From positions 1,116,001 through 1,180,000 of the forward strand of contig NC_018691.1 of the NCBI RefSeq assembly GCF_000300005.1: a DNA stretch of 64,000 nt, read 5' to 3'. Both the position numbers and the translations under genes were made by a program. The notes beneath the pieces were generated by a model. That model made no database searches, was not told the DNA's origin, and saw nothing but the letters and a program-made list of their open reading frames with translations. This document shows, piece after piece, positions 30,697-37,721 of this stretch (the first letter of the stretch is position 1; each line of letters begins with the position of its first letter). This stretch comes from Alloalcanivorax dieselolei B5. Its GTDB lineage: Bacteria > Pseudomonadota > Gammaproteobacteria > Pseudomonadales > Alcanivoracaceae.

Positions 30697-30743
30697 CTGG
30701 CAGCAGTTTGTCATCATTGTATAATGCGGATGCGAATCATTCC
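30697..30743 (+). promoter_or_regulatory. Promoter and Fur-like box of the second TonB receptor
   Basis: CTGGCA (30697-30702), 17-bp spacer and a perfect TATAAT (30720-30725), followed at 30729-30743 by GATGCGAATCATTCC, matching the Fur core AATGATAATCATT at most positions. The 10-mer TCATTCCTAT here recurs upstream of exbB (37751-37760). The rest of 30468-30696 shows no gene. Confidence 0.6.
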
Positions 30744-30777
30744 TATAATTGTGCTTGTTATTGGTCAGGAGACTTGT

Positions 30778-33030
30778 ATGGCTAGCCGATCCGGCAACAC
30801 ACAACAACGGCGGGGCCGGGGCACCCGCCATCCACTGGCCTGGGCGGTGGCCGCCACCATGATCAGCAGCCCGGCCTGGGCTCAGGACAGCTCCGGGACA
30901 CAGCAACTGGACACGGTGGAAGTGGGCGCTCAGGGCGAGAGTGCCTTGGGGGAAGCGGACTTCGGCTATGTGGGGCAGCGTAGTCTCACGGCTACCAAGA
31001 TCGATACCCCGGTGAGCGAGACCCCGCGCGCCATCTCCATTGTCACCCGCGAGCAAATGGAAGACCGTGCCTCGATCAGCATCGCCGATGCCCTGCAATA
31101 CACGCCCAGCATCCAGGCGAACTATTTTGGCGAGGACAACAAGCAGGACTGGTTTGTCATCCGTGGTTTTGATCAGGCCAATAACGGTTTGTACCGCGAT
31201 GGTACCCGGGTCTATTCATACGGCTTCTATAGCTGGCAGATCGATCCCTTTGGCCTGGAGCGGGTGGAGATTTTGCGCGGCGCGCCGTCCGCTCTGTATG
31301 GACAGAACCCTCCGGGCGGCGCCATCAATACCGTCAGCAAGCGCCCACGTTCTTATTCCAGTGGCTATGTGGGTCTGGAGTACGGCAGCTACGACCGTAA
31401 GCAGTTGTCGGTGGACGTGAGCGGACCGGTGGGGGAAGGGCATGCCTACCGCCTGGTGGCGTTAAGACGTGACAGCGAAACCCGGGTGGACGATGTGGAT
31501 GCCGAGCGCACCTTGATCGCGCCATCTTTCAAAGCCGCGCTGGGAGACAATACCGATCTGACCCTGCTGGCTTCCTATCAAAAAGACGATTCCGACCCCT
31601 ATCTGCAGTTTCTGCCCACCAGCGGGGTGATCACGCCGAACCCGAACGGCGAGATTGATGATGACGTGGCCGTTGGTAATCCGGACTATGAAAAGTTCGA
31701 GCGTGAGCAAGCCACGCTTGGATACGAATTCGAGCACCGTTTCAGCGACAACACCAGGTTCCAGCAGTACACCCGCTATCAGCACATGAAGATGGATCTG
31801 CGGCAGATGTACTCCCTGGGTTATATGCCCAATTCCGGCGACTCTCAGCTACTGCGTGGGCTGTCCGACGAGGAAGGCGACGCCGACGGGATCAACGTGG
31901 ATAACCGGCTGATCCATAAGTGGAGTTTCAACGGAATCGACCACACGCTGTTGGTGGGGATGGATTATCAGAGTCTGTCCATCGATGGTAAAACCTATGC
32001 TGATCCGGTAATGGGCTACGAAGCGGCGCCCGGTATTTATGCGCCCGCACTGCTCGATCCATACCATCCCAGCTATAGAGATGCGAACGCCCTGGTGCCT
32101 TTGCGGTGTGACTTTTCCACTGGCGCCTGTAATCCCCTGACCGAAGCCGATCGGCAGGAAAGAGACATCGATTTCTATCAGGCTGGTGCTTATCTTCAGG
32201 ATCAGATGAAGTTCAATGACCGCTTCGTCTTCCTGTTTGGCGTTCGTTATGATCACGCCACACAGGAGTACCAAAACAAAACCCTTTCCACGCAGCAGAA
32301 GACGCGAAACGAGGAGTGGACCACCAGCACCGGTCTGGCGTACCTGTTTGATAATGGAGTCACGGCTTACGCCAACTACTCCCAGTATTTCCTGCCGGTA
32401 CGAATCGAAATCGCCAGAGCGGGGACTAACGAGGCCAAACCGGAATCCGGCGACAATGTCGAATTGGGCCTCAAGTACCAGCCGCACGGTTTTGATGGCT
32501 ACTTCAACATGGCTTTGTTCCAGGCCACCAAGGAAAATATGGCCACGGGGGCCGCACTGACCTTGCAGCAGATCGGCGAGGTCGAGAACAAAGGGGTGGA
32601 ACTGGAGGCCGTTGCCAACATTACGCCGAGTCTCAGCGTGATCGCCAACGCCACCTTCATGGACCCGGAAATCAAGGAGAACGGTAATGCGGCCCAGGAA
32701 GGCAATCGTCCTGAGCAGGTGGCCAAGACCCTGGCTTCCGCCTGGGCCAAGTACAGCTTCCTTGAAGGACCGATGAAAGGGGTTTCCGTGGGCACCGGGG
32801 TACGCTATGTCGGCGATACCTATGGCGATAACGACAACACCCGCGAGCATCGCGTGCCGTCGTTCACGCTTTGGGATGCCACGGTGAGCTATCAGTGGCA
32901 GGACTGGAAATTCCAGGTGGCGGCCAAGAATCTGGCCGACAAGGAATATGTTGCCACCTGTTCCAGCGCCTATTACTGCTGGTACGGGGATCGCCGCAAC
33001 GTTATCGCCAGCGTGAGCTATGCCTGGTAA
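30778..33030 (+). CDS. TonB-dependent siderophore receptor (FhuE/FoxA-like)
   Basis: A 750-aa outer-membrane receptor: a basic N-terminus (about 20 residues) before a signal sequence ending SPAWAQ, a TonB-box-like stretch (LDTVEV), a plug with TPRAISIVTREQMEDR, FVIRGFDQANNGLYRDG and ERVEILRGAPSALYGQNPPGG, then a barrel ending VSYAW with the terminal aromatic residue. The plug motifs are those of hydroxamate-siderophore receptors (FhuA/FhuE/FoxA group), although ligand is a guess. ATG 30778 follows AGGAGACTTGT; an earlier in-frame ATG lies within the promoter/Fur region and is rejected. Confidence 0.92.
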   Translation: MASRSGNTQQRRGRGTRHPLAWAVAATMISSPAWAQDSSGTQQLDTVEVGAQGESALGEADFGYVGQRSLTATKIDTPVSETPRAISIVTREQMEDRASISIADALQYTPSIQANYFGEDNKQDWFVIRGFDQANNGLYRDGTRVYSYGFYSWQIDPFGLERVEILRGAPSALYGQNPPGGAINTVSKRPRSYSSGYVGLEYGSYDRKQLSVDVSGPVGEGHAYRLVALRRDSETRVDDVDAERTLIAPSFKAALGDNTDLTLLASYQKDDSDPYLQFLPTSGVITPNPNGEIDDDVAVGNPDYEKFEREQATLGYEFEHRFSDNTRFQQYTRYQHMKMDLRQMYSLGYMPNSGDSQLLRGLSDEEGDADGINVDNRLIHKWSFNGIDHTLLVGMDYQSLSIDGKTYADPVMGYEAAPGIYAPALLDPYHPSYRDANALVPLRCDFSTGACNPLTEADRQERDIDFYQAGAYLQDQMKFNDRFVFLFGVRYDHATQEYQNKTLSTQQKTRNEEWTTSTGLAYLFDNGVTAYANYSQYFLPVRIEIARAGTNEAKPESGDNVELGLKYQPHGFDGYFNMALFQATKENMATGAALTLQQIGEVENKGVELEAVANITPSLSVIANATFMDPEIKENGNAAQEGNRPEQVAKTLASAWAKYSFLEGPMKGVSVGTGVRYVGDTYGDNDNTREHRVPSFTLWDATVSYQWQDWKFQVAAKNLADKEYVATCSSAYYCWYGDRRNVIASVSYAW

Positions 33031-35239: not shown

Positions 35240-36046
35240 TTATAGCGTGTAATTGATCGGAATCCGCACCGCCACCGGATCGCTTCCCAACTGGGCCGGG
35301 GGCGGCGGGAAGCGCAGCCGGCGCACCAGTTCCAGGGATTGCTGATCGAGAATGCGGCTGTTGGAACTGCCCACCAGTTCCACATTTTCCGCACGGCCCT
35401 GGGCGTTGACCCGGAAACTGACTTCCACTTCACCCTGCTGCCGGCGCATGCGCGCCCGGGCCGGGTAGACCTTGTTGTACTCGATGGTATCCCGCACCTT
35501 GCCGAGATAGCGGTTCAGAGCGTTGTCGTTGTCACCGCTGCGATGGACGCCCTCGCCAATGTCCCCGGCGATGCCTTTCTGGCCCTTGGGTTGGGGCGCG
35601 CCGCCCGCCACCTGTTCGGTTGGCTCCGCGTCCGGTTCCGCTTCGGGAGAACCGGCGGGTTCGGCCCGTGGCTCAGGGGCGGGTTCCGGCTCGGGCTTCG
35701 GCTCCGGTTTGGGGACGGGCTTCGGCTCGGGCTTGGGTTCCGGTTTCGGTTCGGGTTTGGGCTCCGGCTTGGGTTTGGGCTTTGGTTTCGGCTTCGGTTT
35801 GGGCTCGGGTTTGGGTTCCGGCTTGGGCTCGGGCTTCGGTTGAGGCTTGGTTTCCACCTGAGCCACCTGGGGCGCCGGTGCCGGTGGTGCCGGCTTGGGC
35901 GCCAGCGACAACGTCATGGCCTGCTGACCACCCTGAATGCCCACGCGGCCACCGGCCAGGGTCAGCGAATTCACCGTCACCAGCAGGCTGCCGTGAACCA
36001 GGATCGCGAGGGCCCAACTAATGATCAGTCGTATACTTCGCCTCAC
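35240..36046 (-). CDS. tonB: TonB energy-transducing protein
   Basis: A 268-aa TonB: N-terminal membrane anchor near residues 5-30 with the [13 protein letters not shown] stretch whose histidine fits the H-x-S signature, a periplasm-spanning Lys-Pro/Glu-Pro repeat (residues 67-122), a polar linker, and a C-terminal TonB domain from about residue 175 ([47 protein letters not shown]). It carries energy from ExbB-ExbD to outer-membrane receptors, plausibly those at 11873 and 30778. ATG overlaps the upstream exbD stop (ATGA). Last gene in the operon. Confidence 0.92.
35681..35848 (-). repeat. tonB: Lys-Pro/Glu-Pro coding repeat in tonB
   Basis: About 28 consecutive dipeptides of KP, EP, KV or EP type encoded by degenerate 6- and 12-bp units (minus-strand AARCCNGARCCN). 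It builds the extended rod that crosses the periplasm. A tract like this is prone to length change by slippage or recombination. Confidence 0.85.
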
Positions 36047-36552
36047 GGAGTGTTCTCGCTCTGGGTTACCAAACGAACTTCTTCCACACCCAGGTCTCGC
36101 AGTTTGCCCAGGTTTTCGCGCAATACACTAAGTGGCACACCGGCATCAGCCAGCAGGCGCACCAGCGGTAATGTCGTCTCTTGCCCGCTGTCGGCGGTGG
36201 CGGCGGTGGTGGGTGCCGTCGGGCTTTCTTTGGAGCCGTTTTGAGCCGCCTTGTCAGCCGCTTCCTTTTCCCGTTCCGCCTGATGTTCGGCGATCAGCGT
36301 GGCGAGGCTGGCCTCGGCCACCGGTTCGCCGTCATGGAACAGCACGCCTTGCTTGTCCAGGATCAACATCAATTGGCTGGGGTCTTCCTCGGTGGCGGCC
36401 TCGGCGCTGTTCGGTGCGGTCACATCCACGGTGGGACGTGGCGCCAACTGGCCGGCCACCATGAAGAAGATCAACAGAAGAAACACTACGTTGATCAGCG
36501 GCAGCACCGGCTCCAGCGGTGGCCGGCGGGGGCTGTTGTCTTCCAGATTCAT
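36043..36552 (-). CDS. exbD: Second ExbD/TolR-like protein with Asn in place of the membrane Asp
   Basis: A 169-aa ExbD/TolR-type protein with one N-terminal membrane helix (residues 15-36, [21 protein letters not shown]) and a periplasmic domain, longer than usual with a Ala/Thr/Ser-rich insertion near residues 95-125. The helix keeps the family frame PLIxVVF, but the position of the universally used protonatable Asp is Asn21 (codon AAC). The first ExbD of the same operon has Asp at this place. It starts four bases inside the upstream gene (ATGA) and is coupled to tonB in the same way. It may form a mixed ExbD pair; a purely structural role is inferred. Confidence 0.85.
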
Positions 36553-36932
36553 GGCAGCAGCTCCAGCTGCACTTCCTTGAGGCCGGCGGCCCGGGCCACG
36601 TCAACGGCGGCGAGGGCGGCCTGCAGGGGCGCGTCCGGATCGCCGGTGATCAGCACGGCTTCGTCATGGCCGGCCAGCCTTTCACCCAGCTGTTCAAGGG
36701 ACAAGGCTTCGCCGTTCCAGTCCACTTTGCCTTCCGCGTTGACGTGCAACTCCAGCCAGGTCTTGTCGTCCTGCCGTTCCACGGCTTCGCTGGGCACCAC
36801 ACTCACCGGCAGGTCCTTCCAGGCCCCGAAGCGGGTGGCCAGCATGAAGAACACCAGCAGAATAAAAACCACATCGATGAGTGGGGTGAGACTGATAGCC
36901 GGCGAACGGTGACGTTCGGGCTCAAGATACAT
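36549..36932 (-). CDS. exbD: ExbD biopolymer transport protein
   Basis: A 127-aa ExbD: short cytoplasmic start ([14 protein letters not shown]), one membrane helix ([20 protein letters not shown]) with the essential protonatable Asp20, and a periplasmic domain ending with the [10 protein letters not shown] strand. It works with the ExbB-type channel to turn proton flow into TonB movement. The gene overlaps exbB by 11 bp and the second exbD by four, so all are translationally linked. Confidence 0.92.
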
Positions 36933-37611
36933 GGGCGATGCGGGCCTCGCTGCTGGGAACGCTGTCCCGGGTCGGAGCGTTGCTGTCCTGGTCGAGGCGG
37001 CGGCGTTGTACTTTCAGCTGGGACAGGCGGTCCTGCAGTTTTTCCCGGCACACCTCAATGGTGCGGTCCGCCCAATGGAAGGCGGCCAGGGCGGGAATCG
37101 CCACGGTCAGACCCGCGGCGGTGGTCAGCAGTGCTTCCCAGATACCGCCGGAGAGAATGGCCGGATCCACCTGGGAGCCGGCCTGTTCCAGAGCCTGGAA
37201 AGCGCTGATCATGCCGAAGACGGTGCCGAGCAGGCCCAGCAGCGGCGCCAGCGCGCTGATCACCTCGAGAATCCGCAGCCCGCCACGCAACTCATCCAGG
37301 GACTCGCGGGCGCGGCGCAGGCTGTCTTCTTCCCAGCTTTGCTCGTCCATATCGCGCTGGTTCCAGGAGGTCAGCACCACCTGATCGATGGGCGTACGGC
37401 CCGGCTTTTGTTGGGCCGGAACTTCACCGCGTTCCAGACTCGCCAGCAGGGCATCCGCCTGGCGGCTTGCCTTGGGGCGCACACGGGCGAACTGCAGTAT
37501 CTTGGAAATCAGGGTGGCCAGACCGATCACGGACATCAGGCCAAGCACCCACATGGTGATACCACCGGAAACGAACCACTCGGGGAGGTGAAACTGCAGA
37601 GAAGAGGTCAT
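36922..37611 (-). CDS. exbB: ExbB/TolQ-type proton channel protein
   Basis: A 229-aa MotA/TolQ/ExbB-family protein with three helices: residues near 15-40 ([23 protein letters not shown]), near 125-150 ([20 protein letters not shown]) and near 165-190 ([19 protein letters not shown]). These two latter motifs are the channel-lining hallmarks. It forms the pentamer holding ExbD. ATG 37611 follows TGGAGTTCGG; a longer start adds a basic leader and is unlikely. First gene of exbB-exbD-exbD-tonB. Confidence 0.9.
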
Positions 37612-37721
37612 CGCCGAACTCCATCGTGGAAAAGGCGGATATCGCCGTCGGCCGGGACGTATAAAAGCGGATAACGGCACCTTGGGGCACCGTGACGGGA
37701 CGATATCTCAGTGTGCGGGCG

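Follow-up and report, generated by a model that had tools for sequence, protein, structure and literature searches.

An exbB-exbD-exbD-tonB operon of Alloalcanivorax dieselolei B5 with an Asp/Asn pair of ExbD proteins: a candidate one-aspartate Ton motor

The closest described system is the ExbB-ExbD-TonB complex of Escherichia coli, in which five ExbB subunits are combined with two identical, Asp-bearing ExbD proteins encoded by one exbD gene. An ExbD(D25N) variant is described as inactive in that host (PMC11658791). According to a structural paper from 2025, the channel alternates between the two essential Asps in all the rotary models it cites for MotAB and ExbBD, each proton corresponding to a step of 36 degrees (PMC12215075). 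The two identical Asps are described as asymmetrically placed in most structures, and one exception is named (PMC12905483). For the MotB protein of Campylobacter jejuni, an Asn variant in a solved structure was taken as a mimic of the proton-bearing state (PMC11940233).

We analyzed a stretch of 64,000 nucleotides from Alloalcanivorax dieselolei B5 (NC_018691.1, positions 1,116,001 to 1,180,000), referred to below as the window. It contains a Ton operon that is homologous to the E. coli system throughout and shares with it the pore threonines of ExbB, the ExbD layout, and TonB. However, whereas the two ExbD chains are identical in E. coli, the window operon encodes two unlike ExbDs, one of which carries Asn at the site of the Asp.

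The operon and its two ExbD proteins

The operon lies on the minus strand (37680-35240) in the order exbB-exbD1-exbD2-tonB, and Pfam recognized all four products. The exbB gene (36922..37680, minus strand; MotA/TolQ/ExbB family) encodes 252 amino acids from a GTG and scored 96.5 bits against PF01618; an internal ATG at 37611 is the likelier start. It overlaps exbD-1 (36549..36932, minus strand; 127 amino acids) by 11 nucleotides, and overlaps of 4 nucleotides follow between exbD-1 and exbD-2 (36043..36552, minus strand; 169 amino acids) and between exbD-2 and tonB (35240..36046, minus strand; 268 amino acids from a GTG, PF03544 [TonB_C] 76.3 bits). The TonB protein has His18 in its N-terminal hydrophobic stretch, a long Lys/Glu-Pro linker, and a TonB C-terminal domain. 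Both features by which we recognized a Ton motor were therefore found at this locus, namely an ExbB with pore threonines and a TonB in the operon. In ExbB, Thr153, Glu182, and Thr187 aligned with Thr148, Glu176, and Thr181 of E. coli ExbB (5sv0; positions counted by hand). A further acidic residue, Glu139 (37266-37264), opens the second conserved helix; it precedes the pore threonine by 14 residues and, from the geometry of the helix, may point into the pore.

ExbD-1 and ExbD-2 scored 77.5 and 58.3 bits against the Pfam ExbD profile (PF02472), both above the cut-off of 25.4 bits. ExbD-1 has Asp20 in PLIDVVF (codon GAT, 36873..36875, minus strand), and ExbD-2 has Asn21 in PLINVVF (codon AAC, 36490..36492, minus strand). 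HMMER aligned Asn21 with the Asp of the solved E. coli ExbD (chain 6tyi_Y), which is Asp25 when counted by hand from the printed alignment; the positions and residues originally predicted for the two sites were thus correct. The predicted transmembrane helix of ExbD-2 (residues 17 to 35) contains no acidic residue, so that the helix Asp of canonical proton coupling is found in ExbD-1 and is replaced by Asn21 in ExbD-2. Neither protein reached the cut-offs of the NCBIfam equivalogs scored (ExbD, TIGR02803 and TIGR02804; TolR, TIGR02801). ExbD-2 scored 34.5 against 127.3 for TolR and 28.9 against 152.95 for ExbD_1, and ExbD-1 scored 37.4 against 127.3 for TolR and 27.3 against 123.45 for ExbD_2.

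The structure models agreed with the profile comparison in giving both proteins the common ExbD layout. ExbD-1 was modeled with a helix at residues 16 to 39 and an ExbD-like periplasmic domain, and ExbD-2 was modeled with a helix at residues 17 to 35 and a mean pLDDT of 82.3. For both models, the top Foldseek matches in the PDB were ExbD periplasmic domains with a probability of 1.00. The best fold match of ExbD-2 (8pek) had an E value of 4.1e-4 and an rmsd of 6.7 A. The periplasmic domain of ExbD-2 contains a low-complexity insert of approximately 30 residues (about 99 to 128; 36258-36169), which was predicted with lower confidence and is absent or shorter in the aligned relatives; this insert is perhaps the cause of the modest fold match. 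Judged by its residues, ExbD-2 is a variant of the ExbD family and not a canonical ExbD.

The host genome has four more ExbD-family loci, each with Asp and an adjoining ExbB-like gene, and one of them (L004) resembles a canonical ExbB-ExbD-TonB set. In the window, an FhuA/FoxA-like TonB-dependent siderophore receptor above the NCBIfam cut-off (TIGR01783) is encoded on the plus strand at 30724-33030, approximately 2 kb past tonB with other genes in between. Among 55 long Asp/Asn loci, 22 had an open reading frame resembling a TonB-dependent receptor within the fetched flanks of up to 5 kb. Six neighbors were scanned: one is a siderophore receptor above its NCBIfam cut-off, three resembled parts of heme/B12/iron-type ABC transporters at scores below the equivalog cut-offs, and two had no match. 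Judging from these neighbors, the Asp/Asn Ton system likely serves iron or heme uptake.

Distribution and conservation of the Asp/Asn pair

Loci were collected with ExbD-2 as the query (in its own family, order, and class), by a genome-wide scan for the Asn motif, with ExbB as the query, and by direct fetch. Altogether 286 loci were read, of which 5 had no recognized ExbD (L241, L252, L256, L259, and L260; four of them came from the ExbB search in the order of an Asp/Asp genome) and 34 duplicated ExbDs already counted, leaving 247. Tandem exbD pairs were present in 199 of these, 189 of them Asp then Asn and 10 Asp-Asp, and none of the 199 was Asn-first or Asn-Asn. The check originally suggested was whether second ExbDs conserve Asn while the first ones keep Asp, and they do so in 189 of 199 pairs.

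The counts can be split by the search through which a locus was first found. The genome of the window itself contributed 1 Asp/Asn pair, the ExbD-2 query 53 with no Asp/Asp pair, and the fetch of the rest of the family 8. The Asn-motif scan gave 73 Asp/Asn pairs, for which the search pattern imposed the Asn but not the Asp of the partner; it matched at least 540 relatives, and the best 80 were kept. Within these best 80 of at least 540, the closest named relatives were Alloalcanivorax and Alcanivorax, the window's own record possibly being excluded. The ExbB query, which is blind to the ExbD residue, yielded 54 Asp/Asn and all 10 Asp/Asp pairs, the latter being oversampled in part of these searches, where the queries were ExbBs of Asp/Asp operons and one search was run in the order of an Asp/Asp genome. 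With the ExbB of the window alone as the query, 15 new Asp/Asn pairs and 2 Asp/Asp pairs were recovered. In this ExbB-query output, several ExbB/TolQ-like matches of approximately 202 residues from genomes of one family (f229) contained one internal in-frame stop, perhaps where the matches overran the end of the gene.

In the family of the window, the operon was found in 41 of 46 genomes, all 41 with the same gene order and the Asp/Asn pair, and the other 5 gave weak matches or none. The Asn is therefore not a strain-specific variant, as would have undermined the original prediction, and its conservation across relatives rules out chance or error as its source. By record titles, the Asp/Asn operon occurs in both Alpha- and Gammaproteobacteria. 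A tblastn search with ExbD-2 for plasmid-borne copies found none among 72,556 records. An open reading frame resembling tonB was present in 172 of the 189 Asp/Asn loci, and none was recognized in the stretch read of the remaining 17. The two exbD genes are closely spaced, with a median gap of 2 nucleotides between the stop of the first and the start of the second and a 4-nucleotide overlap in 65 of 189 loci (starts assigned by rule).

The 48 loci with a single ExbD had Asp in all but one. The exception (L222) has ExbD-1 and ExbD-2 in one open frame (2069-2950); a natural fusion was considered and rejected, since what appears to be the normal end of ExbD-1 sits in another frame, which makes a frameshift, in the assembly or real, likelier.

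The motifs around the site were compared in 163 pairs and 45 single ExbDs, before the final 34 loci joined the set. The first ExbDs of these pairs shared an 18-residue consensus with Thr at position -4 from the site in 96%, a residue that the second type does not have, while most second ExbDs had an acid at -7 and PLIN(V/I) followed by ten further consensus letters. In the full set, 153 of 189 second ExbDs had the acid at -7, which occurred in none of the 189 first ExbDs and none of the 47 single ones. Positions -14 to -5 together carried a mean net charge of +2.65 in ExbD-1 and +0.64 in ExbD-2; for single ExbDs it was +0.4. Such unlike charges ahead of the helix fit, if weakly, with contact between unlike chains. 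The helix of ExbD-2 was approximately as constrained as that of ExbD-1 and had invariant positions.

We built a careful tree from a thinned sample in which the diagnostic column was blanked. All 38 first ExbDs fell into one clade (99/92), from which the 14 single ExbDs of the sample were all absent, and a separate clade (98/94) took in 36 of the 38 second ExbDs. Odd or long-branched sequences were left out (L211, L214, L238, L193, L210, L207, and L244, and the single ExbDs L212, L213, and L222). The Asn-bearing second ExbDs of L202 and L234 grouped with the single Asp ExbD of L018 (99/90), away from the other second ExbDs. More than one origin of the Asn-type second ExbDs is possible on the basis of these trees; a quick tree of 256 rows, which left many forks unresolved, required 5 changes for the first ExbDs and also 5 for the Asn-type second ExbDs.

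A second tree contained 92 diverse second ExbDs, again from a thinned sample (without L211, L214, L238, L244, L207, and rows with fewer than 80 filled columns), and only N or D occurred at the site. Codon changes at this position comprised 28 at the third base and 4 at the first base. On the best tree, the Asp residues among the Asn-type second ExbDs required 4 changes, at least 2 of them forced by well-supported branches, the alignments being short and L182 standing on a long branch. Asn is a single base change away from Asp, so its retention argues for selection rather than inertia. The excess of third-base over first-base changes and the restriction of the site to Asn and Asp show that the Asn of the second ExbD is held by long-term selection.

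Eight of the 10 Asp/Asp pairs were judged from their sequences to be the same operon type (L179, L182, L247-L249, L258, L262, and L273), and Asn is thus not absolutely required. In 6 of these 8, the Asp-bearing second ExbD had S, A, or N at position +2 from the site, where the Asn-type second ExbDs of the same sample had V or I, hinting at local readjustment. The other two (L211 and L214) have a different B-B-D-D arrangement, in which a pair of exbB-like genes is combined with a pair of exbD-like ones, and each of their ExbDs has Asp and a TPMLD motif.

Readings of the Asn-bearing ExbD

We lean toward a motor of five ExbBs with one ExbD-1 and one ExbD-2, in which Asp20 would be the one proton carrier and Asn21 a fixed mimic of the protonated state. 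The ExbD-1/ExbD-2 heterodimer would form the central axle within the ExbB pentamer, and only Asp20 of ExbD-1 would take up and release protons. Asn21, at the place of the second Asp, would act as a permanently neutral, always-protonated stand-in, still able to hydrogen-bond in the ring of ExbB threonines. With a fixed Asn facing one Asp, half of the alternating cycle would be frozen; the simplest consequence would be a step of 72 degrees for each proton in place of 36, or, in rotary 5:2 models, no more than 5 protons for a full turn where two Asps would use 10. Alternatively, the motor could work as a ratchet with its idle state set by the Asn side. A mixed axle is the best-fitting reading because no Asn-first or Asn-Asn pair was found, the order is strict, the genes are closely spaced, the N-terminal charges are unlike, and the pore threonines aligned with Thr148 and Thr181 were kept in every Asp/Asn ExbB scored (162 taken). 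The originally predicted mixed pair with a single protonatable group is thus what we infer from order, pairing, charges, and threonines, and the eight operons of the same type with two Asps count against it. So do the second ExbDs that fall outside the main clade and the ExbB residue aligned with E. coli Glu176, which was not conserved (E in 91 of 162 Asp/Asn ExbBs). Given models with two alternating Asps, a one-Asp motor might also fail to run.

The motor could instead consist of ExbD-1 homodimers, with ExbD-2 as an accessory protein whose membrane Asn takes no part in proton transfer and whose partner is TonB or peptidoglycan, bound away from the pore or at a different stage. The insert that ExbD-2 has of its own is in keeping with this, and a tandem exbD2 gene of Xanthomonas campestris is described as dispensable for iron uptake and needed for pectate lyase activity (PMC3551730). 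However, a helix outside the pore has no obvious need for Asn in a hydrophobic run, and neither the constraint on the ExbD-2 helix, close to that of ExbD-1, nor the restriction to N or D is expected of it; we regard an accessory role as unlikely. It seems to us rather unlikelier still that ExbD-2 forms nonconducting complexes of five ExbBs and two ExbD-2 chains, which would compete with the active complexes, adjusting the system or switching it off. Asn in place of this Asp is described as inactivating E. coli ExbD (PMC11658791), and a subunit of this kind might serve as a brake. For a brake, however, further neutral residues should be acceptable at the site, where only N or D was seen, and exbD-2 should then sometimes be lost. 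Only one of the 48 single ExbDs (L264) looks like a first ExbD of this operon type, and its contig ends directly after that gene; the careful tree, with 14 single ExbDs, placed none among the first ExbDs.

That both sites carry protons, through post-translational conversion of the Asn to Asp or through a substitute acid in ExbB such as Glu/Asp139, is in our judgment very improbable. Residue 139 was acidic in 157 of 164 ExbBs from Asp/Asn operons (2 of the 164 having gaps there), compared with 1 of 45 from single-ExbD loci, which would fit a compensating proton carrier. Yet both ExbBs scored from Asp/Asp operons of the same type (L179 and L182) also have Glu139, and so this residue is a trait of the ExbB lineage that does not go with the Asn; we rejected it as a compensating carrier, and it lies 14 residues off the pore threonine. 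Asn followed by Val or Ile is a poor deamidation site, which makes conversion unfavorable here. We give almost no credence to a decaying duplicate that has lost its Asp and is drifting. ExbD-2 does lack the residue known as essential, but its helix has invariant positions, the operon is found, by record titles, in two classes of Proteobacteria, and 28 third-base against 4 first-base changes with only N or D at the site led us to reject the drift of a dead copy.

Relation to described systems

Tandem exbD genes are already known from Xanthomonas and Myxococcus, and motors with two B-type subunits from AglRQS and the vWA pairs. Tandem or multiple exbD genes are also the subject of papers on Sphingobium (PMC8599685) and Helicobacter (PMC13367063). 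An Asn-bearing second ExbD was not found described in the open-access literature searched by titles, abstracts, and passages, with subscription papers mostly outside this scope. The Xanthomonas campestris cluster tonB-exbB-exbD1-exbD2, compared by its description, likewise has tandem exbD genes in a Ton cluster but differs in having tonB first and an exbD2 dispensable for iron uptake (PMC3551730). Compared in the same way, exbB1-exbD1-exbD2 of Myxococcus xanthus (Oar/PopC) shares two exbD genes with one exbB and a tonB (PMC11658791). The AglRQS gliding motor of Myxococcus combines one pentamer-type protein with two ExbD/MotB-like proteins, described as either hetero- or homodimers; unlike in the window operon, both B-type subunits are described with the conserved Asp (PMC9389320). 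The TPH-vWA pairs with a TolQ-like partner resemble the proposed axle in that unlike proteins form heterologous pairs, modeled inside one pentamer, but they are not ExbD proteins and are described with a conserved Asp pair, one per monomer (PMC12204202). Laboratory variants of MotB with Asn for Asp carry Asn at the same functional site as a mimic of the protonated state (PMC11940233); those are engineered, whereas the Asn of ExbD-2 is natural and stands on one of two unlike chains.

On the broader proposal, that in a whole class of Ton motors each axle naturally works with a single proton-binding Asp, while a selected Asn on its partner imitates a permanently protonated site, our judgment is evenly balanced. 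If it is true, alternation between two Asps is not essential for 5:2 motors, and motors of this class would have another proton "gear." The natural Asp/Asn pairs and their few Asp/Asp relatives, which are ready-made comparison motors, make the two-Asp alternation assumed in the rotary models (PMC12215075, as described there) directly testable. The two ExbD chains are separately encoded, so each could be labeled or mutated alone, which is impossible with the identical pair of the E. coli type.
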